Shown piece after piece: positions 7,638 to 12,151 of a stretch of 64,000 bases of DNA (its first letter is position 1; each line of letters begins with the position of its first letter). The translations under genes were made by a program, and so were the position numbers. The DNA is taken from contig NZ_JAICBZ010000005.1 of NCBI RefSeq assembly GCF_020179405.1, positions 1-64,000 on the forward strand, given 5' to 3'. The notes under the pieces are model-generated. The model did no database searches and was not told the DNA's origin. It saw only the letters and a program-made list of their open reading frames with translations. Origin of the DNA: Xinfangfangia pollutisoli (GTDB taxonomy: Bacteria; Pseudomonadota; Alphaproteobacteria; Rhodobacterales; Rhodobacteraceae).

Positions 7638-7640
7638 GCT

Positions 7641-7661
7641 ATGCGCCAGACGCATGGCAGG
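7641..7661. promoter_or_regulatory. LysR-type operator candidate upstream of the sRNA
   Basis: Inverted repeat ATGCG (7641-7645), 5-base spacer, CGCAT (7651-7655), overlapping GCATGGCAGG (7652-7661), which nearly repeats a motif upstream of the LysR gene. Its centre is about 75 bases before the predicted sRNA start, a usual LTTR recognition-site distance. Confidence 0.45.
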
Positions 7662-7688
7662 CATACCCAACCTGCGGCAATCCATCCC

Positions 7689-7716
7689 TTGCGCGATTCA
7701 TCTTCTGTCCATAAAT
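7689..7716 (+). promoter_or_regulatory. predicted sigma-70 promoter of the sRNA
   Basis: -35 TTGCGC (7689-7694), 16-base spacer, -10 ATAAAT (7711-7716). This predicts transcription from about 7722, well after the LysR stop codon. Confidence 0.5.
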
Positions 7717-7721
7717 CAGGC

Positions 7722-7805
7722 GGCGAGGCGCTGAACGAGGCAACTCTTCGCGCTTCAAACCTCCCTGTTGGACTTGGGCCGAGCTTCTGCTCGGCCTTCT
7801 TTTTT
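7722..7805 (+). ncRNA. candidate AbcR-like (alpha-r15) trans-acting small RNA
   Basis: Short transcription unit between a LsrB/VtlR-like regulator and the converging ECF42 gene. It has its own promoter (7689-7716), a single-stranded AACCUCCCUGUUGGAC stretch at about 7758-7773, and an intrinsic terminator: GGCCGAGC (7777-7784), UUCU loop, GCUCGGCC (7789-7796), then UUCUUUUUU. AbcR RNAs carry CUCCC anti-Shine-Dalgarno motifs that block ABC-transporter mRNAs, and they lie next to, and under control of, VtlR/LsrB-type regulators. Predicted length is about 84 nt, shorter than rhizobial AbcRs. The class assignment rests on context and motif; no alignment was made. Confidence 0.6.
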
Positions 7806-9035
7806 CCGGGGTTGCGAATCATCCGGCAGATCTGAGGCGCGGGCGCGCAGAAACGCCGCATCCGCAGGGCTTGCGGCAAGCGCGATGGCCTGGGCATAGG
7901 CGGCACGGGCGGCGGTGATCTCGCCCGCGCGGGCCAGGAATTCGGCCGCCGCGGCGTGGAAGGGCTGATAGGCGCGCAGATCGGCCGCCAGCGGCGCCAG
8001 CGCGGCCAGCGCGGCCTCGGCCCCCTCGGCCTCGCCCAGGGCCACCGCATGGCTGAGACGGGTCACCGGCGTATCCTCGAAAGCCAGCAGCCGCGCCTGC
8101 AGCGCCGCCATCCGCGCCCAGTCGGGCGGCTGGGCCAGATGGCAGGCGGCAATCCCGGCCTTCAGCCGGAAGGGCGCCTCGGGCGCGGGCGGGGCCAGCA
8201 GGGCCCGGGCCTCGGCGATCATCGCCGCATCCCACAGGGTGCGATCCTGAAGCTGCGGTGGCACGGTCGCGCCATCGGGCCCGGTGCGGGCGGCGCGGCG
8301 GGCCTGGGTCAGCAGCAGAAGCGCCAGGCAGGCGTCGATTTCGGCATCGCCGGGGCGCAGCGCGCGCAGCATGCGGGCCAGAAACACCGCCTCGTCGCAC
8401 AGGTCGCGGCCGGCGGCGGGGCCCGCCGCGTAACCTGCCGTGAAGACAAGATAGATCACCGTCAGAACCGAATTCAGCCGCGCGGGCCAGTCTTCGGGGC
8501 CAGGCACGGCAAAGGGAATGCCGGCCGCGGCGATCTTGGCCCGAGCCCGGCTAAGCCTTTGGCCCATCGTGGTTTCCGCATCCAGAAACACCGCTGCGAC
8601 CTGCGCCGTCGTCAGCCCGCACAGGCTGCGCAGGGTCAGCGCGACCCGGGTCTTCTGTTCCAGCGCCGGATGGCAGCAGGTGAAGATCAGCCGCAGCCGG
8701 TCATCGGGGATCTGCCCCGCCTGATCCGGCTCTGCGTCCAGCGCCGCCTCTTGCAGCGCCAGCCGTCCGATCGCCGCGCGGTGCCGCGCCAGCGCCGTCT
8801 CGCGGCGATAGGCATCAATCGCCTTGCGCAGGCCGGCGCGGATCAGCCAGGCCTGCGGATGGGCGGGCGGCCCCAGCCGCGCCCAATGCACCAGCGCCGA
8901 GGCCGCAGCCTCTTGCAGCGCCTCTTCGGCGCGGGGGAAATCGCCGATCCGAGCGACGAGGGCGGCCAGACACCGCCCCCGGTCCTGGCGCAGCACCGCG
9001 TCCAGACAGGCCGCCGCGGGGCCGCGATCTGCCAT
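7755..9035 (-). CDS. ECF42-type RNA polymerase sigma factor with C-terminal SnoaL-free helical extension
   Basis: Sigma-70 family factor of 426 residues. Region 2 spans about 15-75 (RIGDFPRAEEALQEA, HPQAWLIRAGLRKAIDAYRR), region 4 about 110-165 (LRLIFTCCHPAL, LTLRSLCGLTTAQVAAVFL), and the long C-terminal half contains LNSVLTVIYLVFTAGY, the DUF6596-type block diagnostic of ECF42. Family members lack a classical anti-sigma factor and are encoded with YCII/DGPF proteins, as here. The gene lies 2 bases after the first YCII gene and 344 bases downstream of the second. Its last 16 codons are the complement of the sRNA end and terminator, giving a charged tail (KKEGRAEARPKSNREV) that may not be conserved. 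Confidence 0.9.
   Translation of the reverse strand: MADRGPAAACLDAVLRQDRGRCLAALVARIGDFPRAEEALQEAAASALVHWARLGPPAHPQAWLIRAGLRKAIDAYRRETALARHRAAIGRLALQEAALDAEPDQAGQIPDDRLRLIFTCCHPALEQKTRVALTLRSLCGLTTAQVAAVFLDAETTMGQRLSRARAKIAAAGIPFAVPGPEDWPARLNSVLTVIYLVFTAGYAAGPAAGRDLCDEAVFLARMLRALRPGDAEIDACLALLLLTQARRAARTGPDGATVPPQLQDRTLWDAAMIAEARALLAPPAPEAPFRLKAGIAACHLAQPPDWARMAALQARLLAFEDTPVTRLSHAVALGEAEGAEAALAALAPLAADLRAYQPFHAAAAEFLARAGEITAARAAYAQAIALAASPADAAFLRARASDLPDDSQPRKKEGRAEARPKSNREV
7777..7805 (+). terminator. intrinsic terminator of the sRNA
   Basis: Perfect 8-bp GC-rich stem (7777-7784 with 7789-7796), UUCU loop, then TTCTTTTTT. It is the best rho-independent terminator in the window. On the other strand it encodes the last residues of the sigma factor. 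Confidence 0.85.
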
Positions 9036-9988: not shown

Positions 9989-12151
9989 ATGAGCGAACCC
10001 GAAATCACCCCCGATCTGGTGGCCTCGCATGGGATCAAGCCCGATGAATGGGACCGGCTGCTGGGCATCCTGGGCCGTCAGCCCACATTCACCGAATTGG
10101 GCATTTTCTCGGCGATGTGGAACGAGCATTGTTCCTACAAATCCTCGAAGATCCATCTGCGCAAGCTGCCCACCTCGGGCCCGCAGGTGATCTGTGGCCC
10201 GGGCGAGAATGCCGGCGTCGTCGATATCGGCGATGGCGATGCGGTGATCTTCAAGATGGAGAGCCACAACCACCCGTCTTACATCGAGCCGCATCAGGGC
10301 GCGGCCACCGGCGTGGGCGGCATTCTGCGCGACGTCTTCACCATGGGCGCGCGGCCGATTGCGGCGATGAACAGCCTGTCCTTCGGCCTGCCCTCGCATC
10401 CGAAGACCGCGCATCTGGTCAAGGGCGTGGTCGAGGGCGTGGGCAGCTATGGCAATGCCTTCGGCGTGCCGACCGTGGGCGGCGAAGTGCGCTTCCACCG
10501 CAGCTATAACGGCAATTGCCTGGTCAACGCCTTTGCGGCGGGCCTGGCGAAGGCCGACCAGATCTTCTACTCGGCCGCCTCGGGCGTCGGCATGCCGGTC
10601 GTCTATCTGGGCGCCAAGACCGGCCGCGACGGCGTGGGCGGCGCCACCATGGCCAGCGCCGAATTCGACGAGACGATCGAGGAAAAGCGCCCCACCGTCC
10701 AGGTCGGCGACCCTTTCACCGAAAAGCGCCTGCTTGAGGCCTGTCTGGAGCTGATGCAGACCGGCGCGGTCATTTCCATTCAGGACATGGGGGCTGCCGG
10801 GCTGACCTGCTCGGCGGTCGAGATGGGCGACAAGGGGGGCCTCGGGATCAAGCTGCAGCTGGATGACGTGCCGCAGCGCGAAACCAACATGACCGCCTAT
10901 GAGATGATGCTGAGCGAATCTCAGGAACGCATGCTGATGGTCCTGCGCCCCGAGAAGGAAGCCGAGGCCCGGGCGATCTTTGTCAAATGGGATCTGGATT
11001 TCGCCATCGTGGGCGAGACCATTCCCGAGGACCGTTTCCTGATCCTGCATGGCAATGAGGTGAAGGCCGACCTGCCCCTGTCGAAACTGTCGTCTTCGGC
11101 GCCGGAATATGACCGGCCCTGGGTGGAAACCCCGGCCGCGGCGCCTTTGGGCGAGGTGCCGGCGATTGGTGCGATTGCCGGGCTGAAGGCGCTGATCGGC
11201 GCGCCGTCCTACGCGCATAAGGCTTGGGTCTATGAACAATATGACAGCCAGGTCGGCGCCGATACGCTGGTGACGCCCGGCCTGCCGGCGGGTGTGGTGC
11301 GGGTGCATGGCACGCAAAAGGCGCTGGCCTTCACCAGCGACGTGACGCCGCGCTACGTGAAGGCGAACCCGCTGCAGGGCGGGCGCCAGGCGGTGGCGGA
11401 AGCCTATCGCAACCTGACCGCGATGGGCGCCCTGCCCTTGGCCACGACCGACAACCTGAATTTCGGCAATCCCGAAAAGCCCGAGATCATGGGCCAGTTC
11501 GTCGGCGCCCTGAAGGGGATCGGCGAGGCCTGTCTGGCGCTGGATATGCCCATCGTCTCGGGCAATGTGTCGCTTTACAATGAAACCGATGGCACGGGCA
11601 TTCTGCCCACGCCCACGATCGGCGCCGTCGGCCTGTTCAAATCGCTGGACGAGGTGATCGCGGGCAAGCCGCAGGCCGGCGATCTGGCGGTGCTGTTGGG
11701 CGAGACCAAGGGCCATCTGGGCCAGTCGGCCCTGCTGGCCGAGGCGTTCGGCATGGAAGCGGGCGATGCGCCGCCGGTCGATCTGAAGGCCGAGAAGAAG
11801 CACGGCGACTTCATCCGCGCCAATCGCAAGGCGATCCGGGCCTGCTCGGATCTCAGCGATGGCGGGCTGGCACTGGCGGCCTTCGAGATGGCCGAAGCGG
11901 CGGGCCAGGGCATCTGGATCGAGCGCGGCGATATCCCCTTCCTCTTCGCCGAGGATCAGGGCCGCTATCTGCTGGCCGTGGCGCCCGAGGCGATGCCGGC
12001 GCTGGAAGCCGCGGCCGAAGCGGCCCGGGTGCCCTTGGCGCTGGTCGGCCAGTTCGGCGGCGATACCGTGTGCCTGGGCACTGATGCGGCGCCGCTGGCG
12101 GGCCTGTCGAAGATCTATCGCAGCGCCTTCGCGGCGGCTTTGGGCGTTTGA
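9989..12151 (+). CDS. purL: phosphoribosylformylglycinamidine synthase subunit II
   Basis: ATP-dependent FGAM synthase of purine biosynthesis, the small (about 720-residue) PurL that works with separate PurS and PurQ. Visible signatures are [10 protein letters not shown] near residue 44, [21 protein letters not shown] near 91-111, and [11 protein letters not shown] in the middle. AIR-synthase-type domains are present in tandem. The stop TGA overlaps the start of the GNAT gene (TGATG), so the two are translationally coupled. purS and purQ are not in this window. Confidence 0.97.

Follow-up and report, generated by a model that had tools for sequence, protein, structure and literature searches.

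The window analysed here, a 64,000-nucleotide stretch of DNA from Xinfangfangia pollutisoli, contains a LysR-type regulator gene directly followed by a putative small RNA gene, which raises the question of what this RNA is and whether the adjoining regulator controls it. The original prediction had assigned the RNA to the AbcR family and the LysR protein to its VtlR-type activators, and had proposed an extension of the VtlR–AbcR circuit to Rhodobacterales.

Organization of the region behind the LysR gene

A promoter, a CUCCC-containing stretch, a perfect terminator and an inverted repeat had been named as the elements of the region, and each of them was found in the sequence (Table 1). The LysR ORF ends with a TAA stop codon and the perfect 21-bp dyad begins at the very next base. 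The predicted distance of about 75 bases between the inverted repeat and the RNA start agrees with the sequence, the centre of the repeat lying at about -75 from position 7723, a start set by homology to the published R. sphaeroides transcription start site (TSS), 3 nt ahead of the Rfam match and 85 nt past the stop codon on the same strand.

The promoter-like sequence resembles both the RpoD and the RpoH1 promoter types of alphaproteobacteria, for which consensi are given in PMC8844928. CTTG occupies the promoter position in 69 of 75 sequences (the window and 74 relatives), and in 52 of these the best -10-like hexamer is located 17 nt from CTTG, with CTAAAT being favoured by the scan, which was run without a shuffle control. 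A generic sigma-70 scan of the region did not report the CTTGCG/ATAAAT promoter and was judged uninformative for this promoter type.

The segment 7722-7805 exceeds 200 of 200 shuffles in fold stability (z = -3.99), and the 40 nt ahead of the core form a more stable fold than shuffles, with a mean z of -3.28 over the window and 74 loci. In the predicted fold the core lies between a hairpin and a terminator, yet two of its C residues may pair with a GG close to the RNA start, at the 5' end, and another two inside the core, so the description of this stretch as single-stranded is fair, not absolute. Only the terminator and two core pairs were recovered by RNAalifold from the SorY alignment A1, because the 5' hairpin aligns poorly, and it was assessed by folding instead; two-sided changes are present in two of the nine consensus pairs, both within the terminator.

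On the opposite strand there is an ORF (7755-9035) coding for an ECF-type sigma factor with Sigma70_r4_2 and DUF6596 domains, whose 3' end is antisense to the SorY core and terminator and which is adjoined by two YCII genes. The gene purL is located at 9989 and is also present within the fetched locus of 68 of 80 relatives.

Table 1. Features of the lsrB–SorY region and of the two other loci of the same genome with a perfect operator sequence
Feature	Position	Strand	Basis or remark
lsrB/vtlR ortholog, LysR-type regulator, 297 aa	6744-7637	+	ORF; HTH_1 and LysR_substrate domains
Predicted LsrB operator GCTATGC-N7-GCATGGC, GCTATGCGCCAGACGCATGGC	7638-7658	.	dyad core ATGCGCCAGACGCAT at 7641-7655
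GCATGGCAGGCAT, counterpart of the VtlR box GCAT-N3-TG-N3-T	7652-7664	+	one mismatch, AG for TG
Promoter-like CTTGCG-N17-ATAAAT	7688-7693 / 7711-7716	+	by sequence
SorY small RNA gene	7723-7806	+	Rfam RF02651 match 7726-7804; length ~83-84 nt
5' hairpin of SorY	7725-7756	+	predicted fold
Anti-Shine-Dalgarno core CCUCCCUGUUGGACUU	7760-7775	+	present in 75 of 80 lsrB loci, one mismatch allowed
Intrinsic terminator and T tail, 9-bp stem	7776-7806	+	terminator scan
Perfect LsrB-type operator, DUF1127 (CcaF1-like) gene, seven CcsR1 matches	L205:1501-2600 (C102:36197 onward)		
Perfect operator ~80 nt ahead of a 53-aa DUF3563 gene	L207:1501-1761 (C135:21387)		

The LysR gene

The best relative of the window LysR protein among solved structures is 9hh1 (242 bits, the next one reaching 115), which is LsrB of A. 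tumefaciens (PMC11975290). With the 9hh1 chain as a query, matches at E<=1e-60 were obtained in 81 of 142 alphaproteobacterial genomes, approximately one per family, and the window gene is the only such match in its own genome, where the closest paralog of the window LsrB scores 117.5 bits versus 653. In a tree of 62 rows, 49 rows including the window protein, rhizobial LsrB and sampled members of the class fall on one side of a split supported at 100/99, with 13 own-genome paralogs on the other; class loci entered the tree if even-numbered and at least 43% identical, L246 and L249 were dropped from the initial 15 paralogs, the bootstrap is not fully settled and several paralogs are on long branches. 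By these comparisons the gene is identified as an ortholog of LsrB/VtlR, which agrees with the regulator type first proposed for it. The tree and the matches in 81 of 142 genomes disagree with PMC11975290 (2025), where LsrB is stated to be confined to Rhizobiales.

The Rhodobacteraceae LsrB branch is long (0.82). The redox cysteines C144 and C273 of rhizobial LsrB are replaced by V and A in the window protein, which has a single cysteine, C190; in 12 other Rhodobacteraceae rows, position 144 is occupied by V (11 rows) or L (one row) and position 273 by A in all 12. Both cysteines are present in three of three rhizobia, while among 32 class rows C144 was found in three and C273 in none. Since the branch is long and the redox cysteines are absent, the signal of the Rhodobacteraceae LsrB may differ. 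With the cysteines missing here and from nearly all non-rhizobial rows, cysteine-based redox sensing may be a rhizobial addition.

Identity of the small RNA

At gathering scores, no Rfam match was detected within the window. With an E-value threshold, the region was matched by the SorY model RF02651 over its full length (1-83) with 71.8 bits and an E-value of 4.9e-14, that is, below the SorY gathering score of 111, and more weakly by SorX (39.9 bits) and suhB/mmgR (24.2 bits). The alpha-r15 (ar15/AbcR, RF02345) covariance search that had been proposed as a check gave no match in the window up to E=10, while rhizobial AbcR loci scanned with the same Rfam library as a positive control reached 97-127 bits, which rules out AbcR by sequence; the family assignment of the original prediction has to be given up in favour of the full-length SorY match. 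The ar15 model scores well in rhizobial loci taken from plasmid-collection records, and three of eight plasmid-collection loci, namely L200 (Methylobacterium), L201 (Azospirillum) and L203 (Tistrella), have neither an ar15 nor a SorY match at E<=0.1. Run against sets of 142, 25 and 385 genomes, the RF02345 model returned no matches, and such a scan shows no absence. SorX, too, is ruled out for the window RNA, being a separate locus in this genome, where it scores 81.2 bits against a cut-off of 46.6 and is accompanied by a second, weaker copy.

The SorX locus (L002:1494-1566, C112 near 141,900) lies behind an OmpR-type gene and is followed by the second SorX-like RNA (1678-1748, 34.6 bits), with the two cores 165 nt apart.

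The window RNA has the build of SorY, comprising a hairpin, CCUCCCUGUUGGACUU, a terminator and a length of ~83 nt with an own promoter recognized by sequence only, and it occupies the place of SorY behind an lsrB ortholog, as SorY does in Luteovulum and in the genome whose match agrees with the published TSS. It also shares with AbcR the position downstream of lsrB/vtlR with a predicted operator, the box being one base off, whereas the ar15 architecture was not found, the RNA having two main hairpins and one core. Since the SorY match is full-length, ar15 is absent and SorX is located separately, the RNA is classified here as a SorY ortholog. The SorY model has matches in 289 of 292 Rhodobacteraceae genomes, some of which may be SorX, since the model also finds that RNA; only one of them exceeds the cut-off, which therefore seems to be set for close kin of R. 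sphaeroides.

Linkage of lsrB, the RNA and the dyad in near relatives

The near-relative set consists of the best 80 lsrB loci, mostly from Rhodobacteraceae, with a few unplaced alphaproteobacteria and one locus under an actinobacterial name. The core lies within 600 nt past the lsrB stop in 75 of these 80, at a distance of 113-340 nt, and is missing in L049, L069, L073, L098 and L110. CCTCCCTG is found within 450 nt of the stop in 75 of the 80 loci versus 0.4 expected, which, together with the SorY E-value, indicates that the RNA feature is not due to chance. CCTCCCTGTTGGAC is unchanged across all 75 core-bearing loci; the rows of alignments A1 and A2 were selected for bearing the core, so core invariance there is no evidence of conservation. 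Conversely, out of the best 30 SorY loci from the 292 Rhodobacteraceae genomes, 28 sit behind lsrB on the same strand and two (L026 and L028) do not.

In R. sphaeroides, SorY is transcribed from a promoter of its own, with the TSS at genome position 1,632,642 (PMC6238624). In one genome the SorY match (115 bits, over the cut-off, behind lsrB) starts at 1,632,645, and it is because of this agreement within 3 nt that the genome is called R. sphaeroides-like here. Luteovulum azotoformans likewise carries an over-cut-off SorY (111.4 bits) behind lsrB. No trxB is located directly upstream of lsrB in the window neighbourhood or in any of the 80 near-relative loci, although it precedes lsrB in 64 of 79 loci from other families and in four of four rhizobia, so the RNA persists where trxB does not.

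The dyad ATGC-N7-GCAT occurs within 450 nt past lsrB in 61 of the best 80 near-relative loci (2.4 expected from shuffles), all of them among the 75 with the core and none among the five without it. Its spacing to the core in these 61 loci is mostly 117-122 nt and thus near-fixed while the lsrB-to-core distance varies, which suggests that the dyad goes with the RNA promoter. Relative to the published SorY TSS, the dyad of the R. sphaeroides-like genome has its centre at -75.

The VtlR/LsrB box GCAT-N3-TG-N3-T was defined in PMC7486931 and PMC8844928, where it is placed at -61 to -49 of PabcR1 and its removal is reported to lower reporter activity more than 22-fold. The exact box is present in four of four rhizobial loci; in L197, L198 and L204 it is included in the sequence ATGC-N7-GCAT-N6-CAT ahead of the first ar15 RNA, and in the Sinorhizobium and Rhizobium loci the operator precedes the first of two ar15 RNAs. 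The rhizobial counterparts of GCATGGCAGGCAT are GCATGGCTGTCAT and GCATGACTGGCAT. It has to be counted against this correspondence that the exact box is found in only nine of the best 80 near-relative loci (2.0 expected) and is one base off in the window. The dyad at 7638-7658 is predicted to be an LsrB operator corresponding to the rhizobial abcR operator region.

Loci of other alphaproteobacterial families

Downstream of lsrB, 42 of 78 loci outside Rhodobacteraceae carry the CCTCCCTG core (0.2 expected) and 36 do not; the dyad is present in 36 (0.4 expected), both features in 28 and either in 50, with a dyad consensus common to near relatives and other families. The common form of the RNA consists of an ACGUC-UCCCA-GACGU hairpin, GAAG, CCUCCCUGUU and a terminator. 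The hairpin is paired in 89.7% of cells versus 87.1 in shuffles, none of 500 reaching the observed value; two-sided changes affect three of its five pairs, which nine of 500 shuffles reach, and the remaining covariation measures are weaker (reached by 23, 41 and 67 of 500), the controls being modest. No pair was recovered by RNAalifold from the other-family alignment A2, from which the core-bearing loci L126, L170 and L176 were left out, so the model R1 built for these RNAs is sequence-only.

R1 has matches in 61 of the 142 genomes, and of the 59 matches at E<=1e-6, 42 are located no more than 1 kb downstream of lsrB, although 39 of these 42 were used to build the model. It also finds SorX (3.4e-6) and SorY (5.6e-4) of the X. 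pollutisoli genome by way of the 3' module. Among 20 other-family loci scanned with Rfam, 14 being core-bearing, none had a match over the cut-off, and an E-value scan of eight loci gave SorX with 42.6 of the 46.6 bits in one. Across the class, 41 perfect operators were found in 30 of 142 genomes, 15 of them behind lsrB or before the RNA, and in one genome the operator and the RNA occur together 4.9 kb away from lsrB. On this comparative evidence Alphaproteobacteria widely share the order lsrB, operator, anti-Shine-Dalgarno RNA, of which AbcR1/2 of rhizobia is the known form.

The sequences behind lsrB in L129, L118 and L160 are longer, contain several C-rich stretches and resemble neither SorY nor the common form; L118 may carry two RNAs in tandem.

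Further perfect sites and the predicted LsrB regulon

The pattern GCYATGC-N7-GCATRGC occurs without mismatch at three sites in the 4.41-Mb genome, the reversed pattern at none, and eight further sites have one mismatch. The three perfect sites precede SorY, a DUF1127 gene with a CcsR array and a DUF3563 gene (Table 1). The DUF1127 gene (42.4 bits) and the CcsR1 matches behind it, which score 38.8-55.2 bits and are thus below the cut-off of 65.3, have the same layout as ccaF1-CcsR of R. sphaeroides (PMC10253847). The DUF3563 gene is a possible new LsrB target. The ar14 model (RF02344) also scores 41-51 bits, below its cut-off, on the CcsR copies of this locus, so the CcsR and ar14 models overlap.

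Perfect sites are present in 75 of 121 Rhodobacteraceae genomes and absent from 46, with five matches of the reversed control in the 121. The sampled set of 33 sites is made up of 30, one per genome, and the three from the genome of the window. In nine cases a CCTCCCTG core follows 86-103 nt after the site, and in 11 the locus includes a DUF1127 ORF, versus none of 80 control loci, the search profile having been built from four of those 11 ORFs; 13 have neither, which counts against the predicted control by LsrB. In the R. sphaeroides-like genome, a perfect site lies before a DUF1127 gene and an over-cut-off CcsR1 match (106.2 bits). It also counts against such control that class-wide, where 28 of 29 sites are outside Rhodobacteraceae, a DUF1127 ORF is near only one of the 29. 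VtlR of rhizobia is described as a direct activator of abcR and DUF1127 genes (PMC7486931, PMC12595884), its targets being AbcR2 and three DUF1127 proteins in Brucella (PMC12595884) and abcR1, atu1667 and vrsA in Agrobacterium (PMC7486931).

Discussion

The window RNA and SorY of R. sphaeroides (RF02651) are alike in core, hairpin, terminator, length and place behind lsrB, but differ in the sequence of the 5' hairpin and in the score, 71.8 bits against a cut-off of 111. The R. sphaeroides SorY is a stress RNA, and its singlet-oxygen induction, RpoHI/HII dependence and takP target are traits of that RNA; takP is named as its target in PMC6238624, and a malate transporter, the RpoH link and Hfq appear in PMC8307010. 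With the LsrB/VtlR systems of Sinorhizobium, Agrobacterium and Brucella that govern AbcR1/AbcR2 (alpha-r15, RF02345), the locus shares the place of the RNA, the operator and the anti-Shine-Dalgarno motif, as well as DUF1127 genes near further operators, which are known from papers for rhizobia and predicted here. It differs from the AbcR1/2 loci in having no ar15 match, one RNA instead of two and two hairpins instead of three, and from the rhizobial lsrB loci in having no trxB upstream, no arsR downstream and no redox cysteines.

SorX (RF02784) and mmgR/suhB (RF00519) have the same 3' module with a CUCCCU core before a GGCC terminator, SorX being placed elsewhere in this genome behind its OmpR-type gene. 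The ccaF1-CcsR1-4 operon of R. sphaeroides (RF02791; CIN1 loci) has the same operator upstream both here and in the R. sphaeroides-like genome, but it is a protein-RNA operon elsewhere in the genome, unlike the window RNA gene. The ‘cuckoo RNA’ family carries CCUCCUCCC loops. The CIN1 loci, named in PMC10253847, are related to this family, and the same paper links ccaF1-CcsR to RpoHI/HII. We regard the RNA as a new member of the known SorY family and the predicted circuit as a new variant of the LsrB/VtlR circuit.

It is likely, in our opinion, that LsrB activates SorY and ccaF1-CcsR in this organism and that this is the local version of an LsrB/anti-Shine-Dalgarno RNA module with a wide distribution. 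LsrB would bind the dyad operator region 7638-7664, centred at about -75, and aid RNA polymerase with a housekeeping or RpoH-type sigma factor at the CTTGCG/ATAAAT promoter; the resulting ~83-nt SorY would expose CCUCCCUGUUGGACUU between the hairpin and the terminator and, together with Hfq, pair with ribosome-binding sites of transporter mRNAs, so that uptake would be lowered in stress. LsrB would also drive the DUF1127(CcaF1-like)-CcsR operon and the DUF3563 gene. That the LysR protein binds here and activates the adjoining RNA, and what the targets are in this organism, we infer. The proposed extension of a VtlR-dependent small RNA circuit to Rhodobacterales is nevertheless supported by the LsrB ortholog, the conserved operator-like dyad and the other perfect sites before DUF1127-CcsR and DUF3563; what changes is its RNA, which is SorY, not AbcR.

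A reading in which SorY is driven by RpoHI/RpoHII alone, with the dyad serving lsrB autoregulation or another protein and its placement being accidental, appears improbable. It draws on the ties of SorY (PMC8307010) and ccaF1-CcsR (PMC10253847) to RpoHI/RpoHII and on AbcR2 of S. meliloti, which is RpoH1-dependent and LsrB-independent (PMC8844928), so SorY could behave likewise; according to PMC7486931, S. meliloti LsrB does not regulate abcR, contrary to PMC8844928, and no LysR dependence of R. sphaeroides SorY was found in the literature passages on this RNA. An accidental placement is difficult to reconcile with a dyad whose spacing to the core is 117-122 nt in the majority of the 61 loci while lsrB-to-core distances range over 113-340 nt, that never occurs without the core in near relatives, and that is also found before DUF1127-CcsR loci and, in one genome, with the RNA away from lsrB. 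An origin of the RNA by processing from the 3' UTR of the lsrB mRNA is far less probable still: it does lie on the lsrB strand 85 nt past the stop codon, and SorX is such a UTR-derived RNA (PMC6238624), but in R. sphaeroides SorY starts at a separate promoter and TSS (PMC6238624) and undergoes no processing (PMC8307010), and the CTTG-type promoter sequence is retained in 69 of 75 sequences.

A question of descent alone, compatible with activation by LsrB, is whether the RNA descends from AbcR (ar15) itself, having diverged too far to be recognized, and is not an independent replacement. The gene neighbour and the operator are as for AbcR1/2, and other families show an in-between form, in which a hairpin exposing UCCCA, with its excess of pairing and two-sided changes and its weaker remaining measures, is combined with CCUCCCUGUU. 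However, the ar15 model finds nothing at E<=10, SorY has one anti-Shine-Dalgarno core between two hairpins whereas AbcR has three hairpins with motifs in the 5' loop and between hairpins (PMC3712013, PMC8844928), and the shared 3' module is also found in SorX and mmgR-type RNAs, so such a descent is considered with reserve, as somewhat doubtful.

Returning to activation by LsrB, it seems reasonably plausible, with less confidence than for the local circuit, that there is an ancient module in which LsrB/VtlR acts through one conserved operator on the RNA behind lsrB, be it AbcR, SorY or an RNA with no Rfam family, and on DUF1127 genes in Rhodobacteraceae and rhizobia, with CcsR RNAs accompanying DUF1127 in Rhodobacteraceae and cysteine sensing added in rhizobia. 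No paper naming both SorY and AbcR1 was found, most subscription papers being outside the search, which is thus no proof of absence, and none treating LsrB together with SorY or CcsR was found in the literature searched.

The LsrB/VtlR–AbcR circuit, which governs nutrient uptake in plant- and animal-associated bacteria, and the SorY/CcsR stress RNAs of Rhodobacter, until now studied apart, would thereby be joined. If one regulator stands over both, a transcriptional activator of SorY and ccaF1-CcsR gains a name and a binding site, and Rhodobacter would become a harmless model organism for an LsrB-type regulator. The data also indicate, for many other alphaproteobacterial families, an RNA that stays below every Rfam cut-off in the loci scanned.
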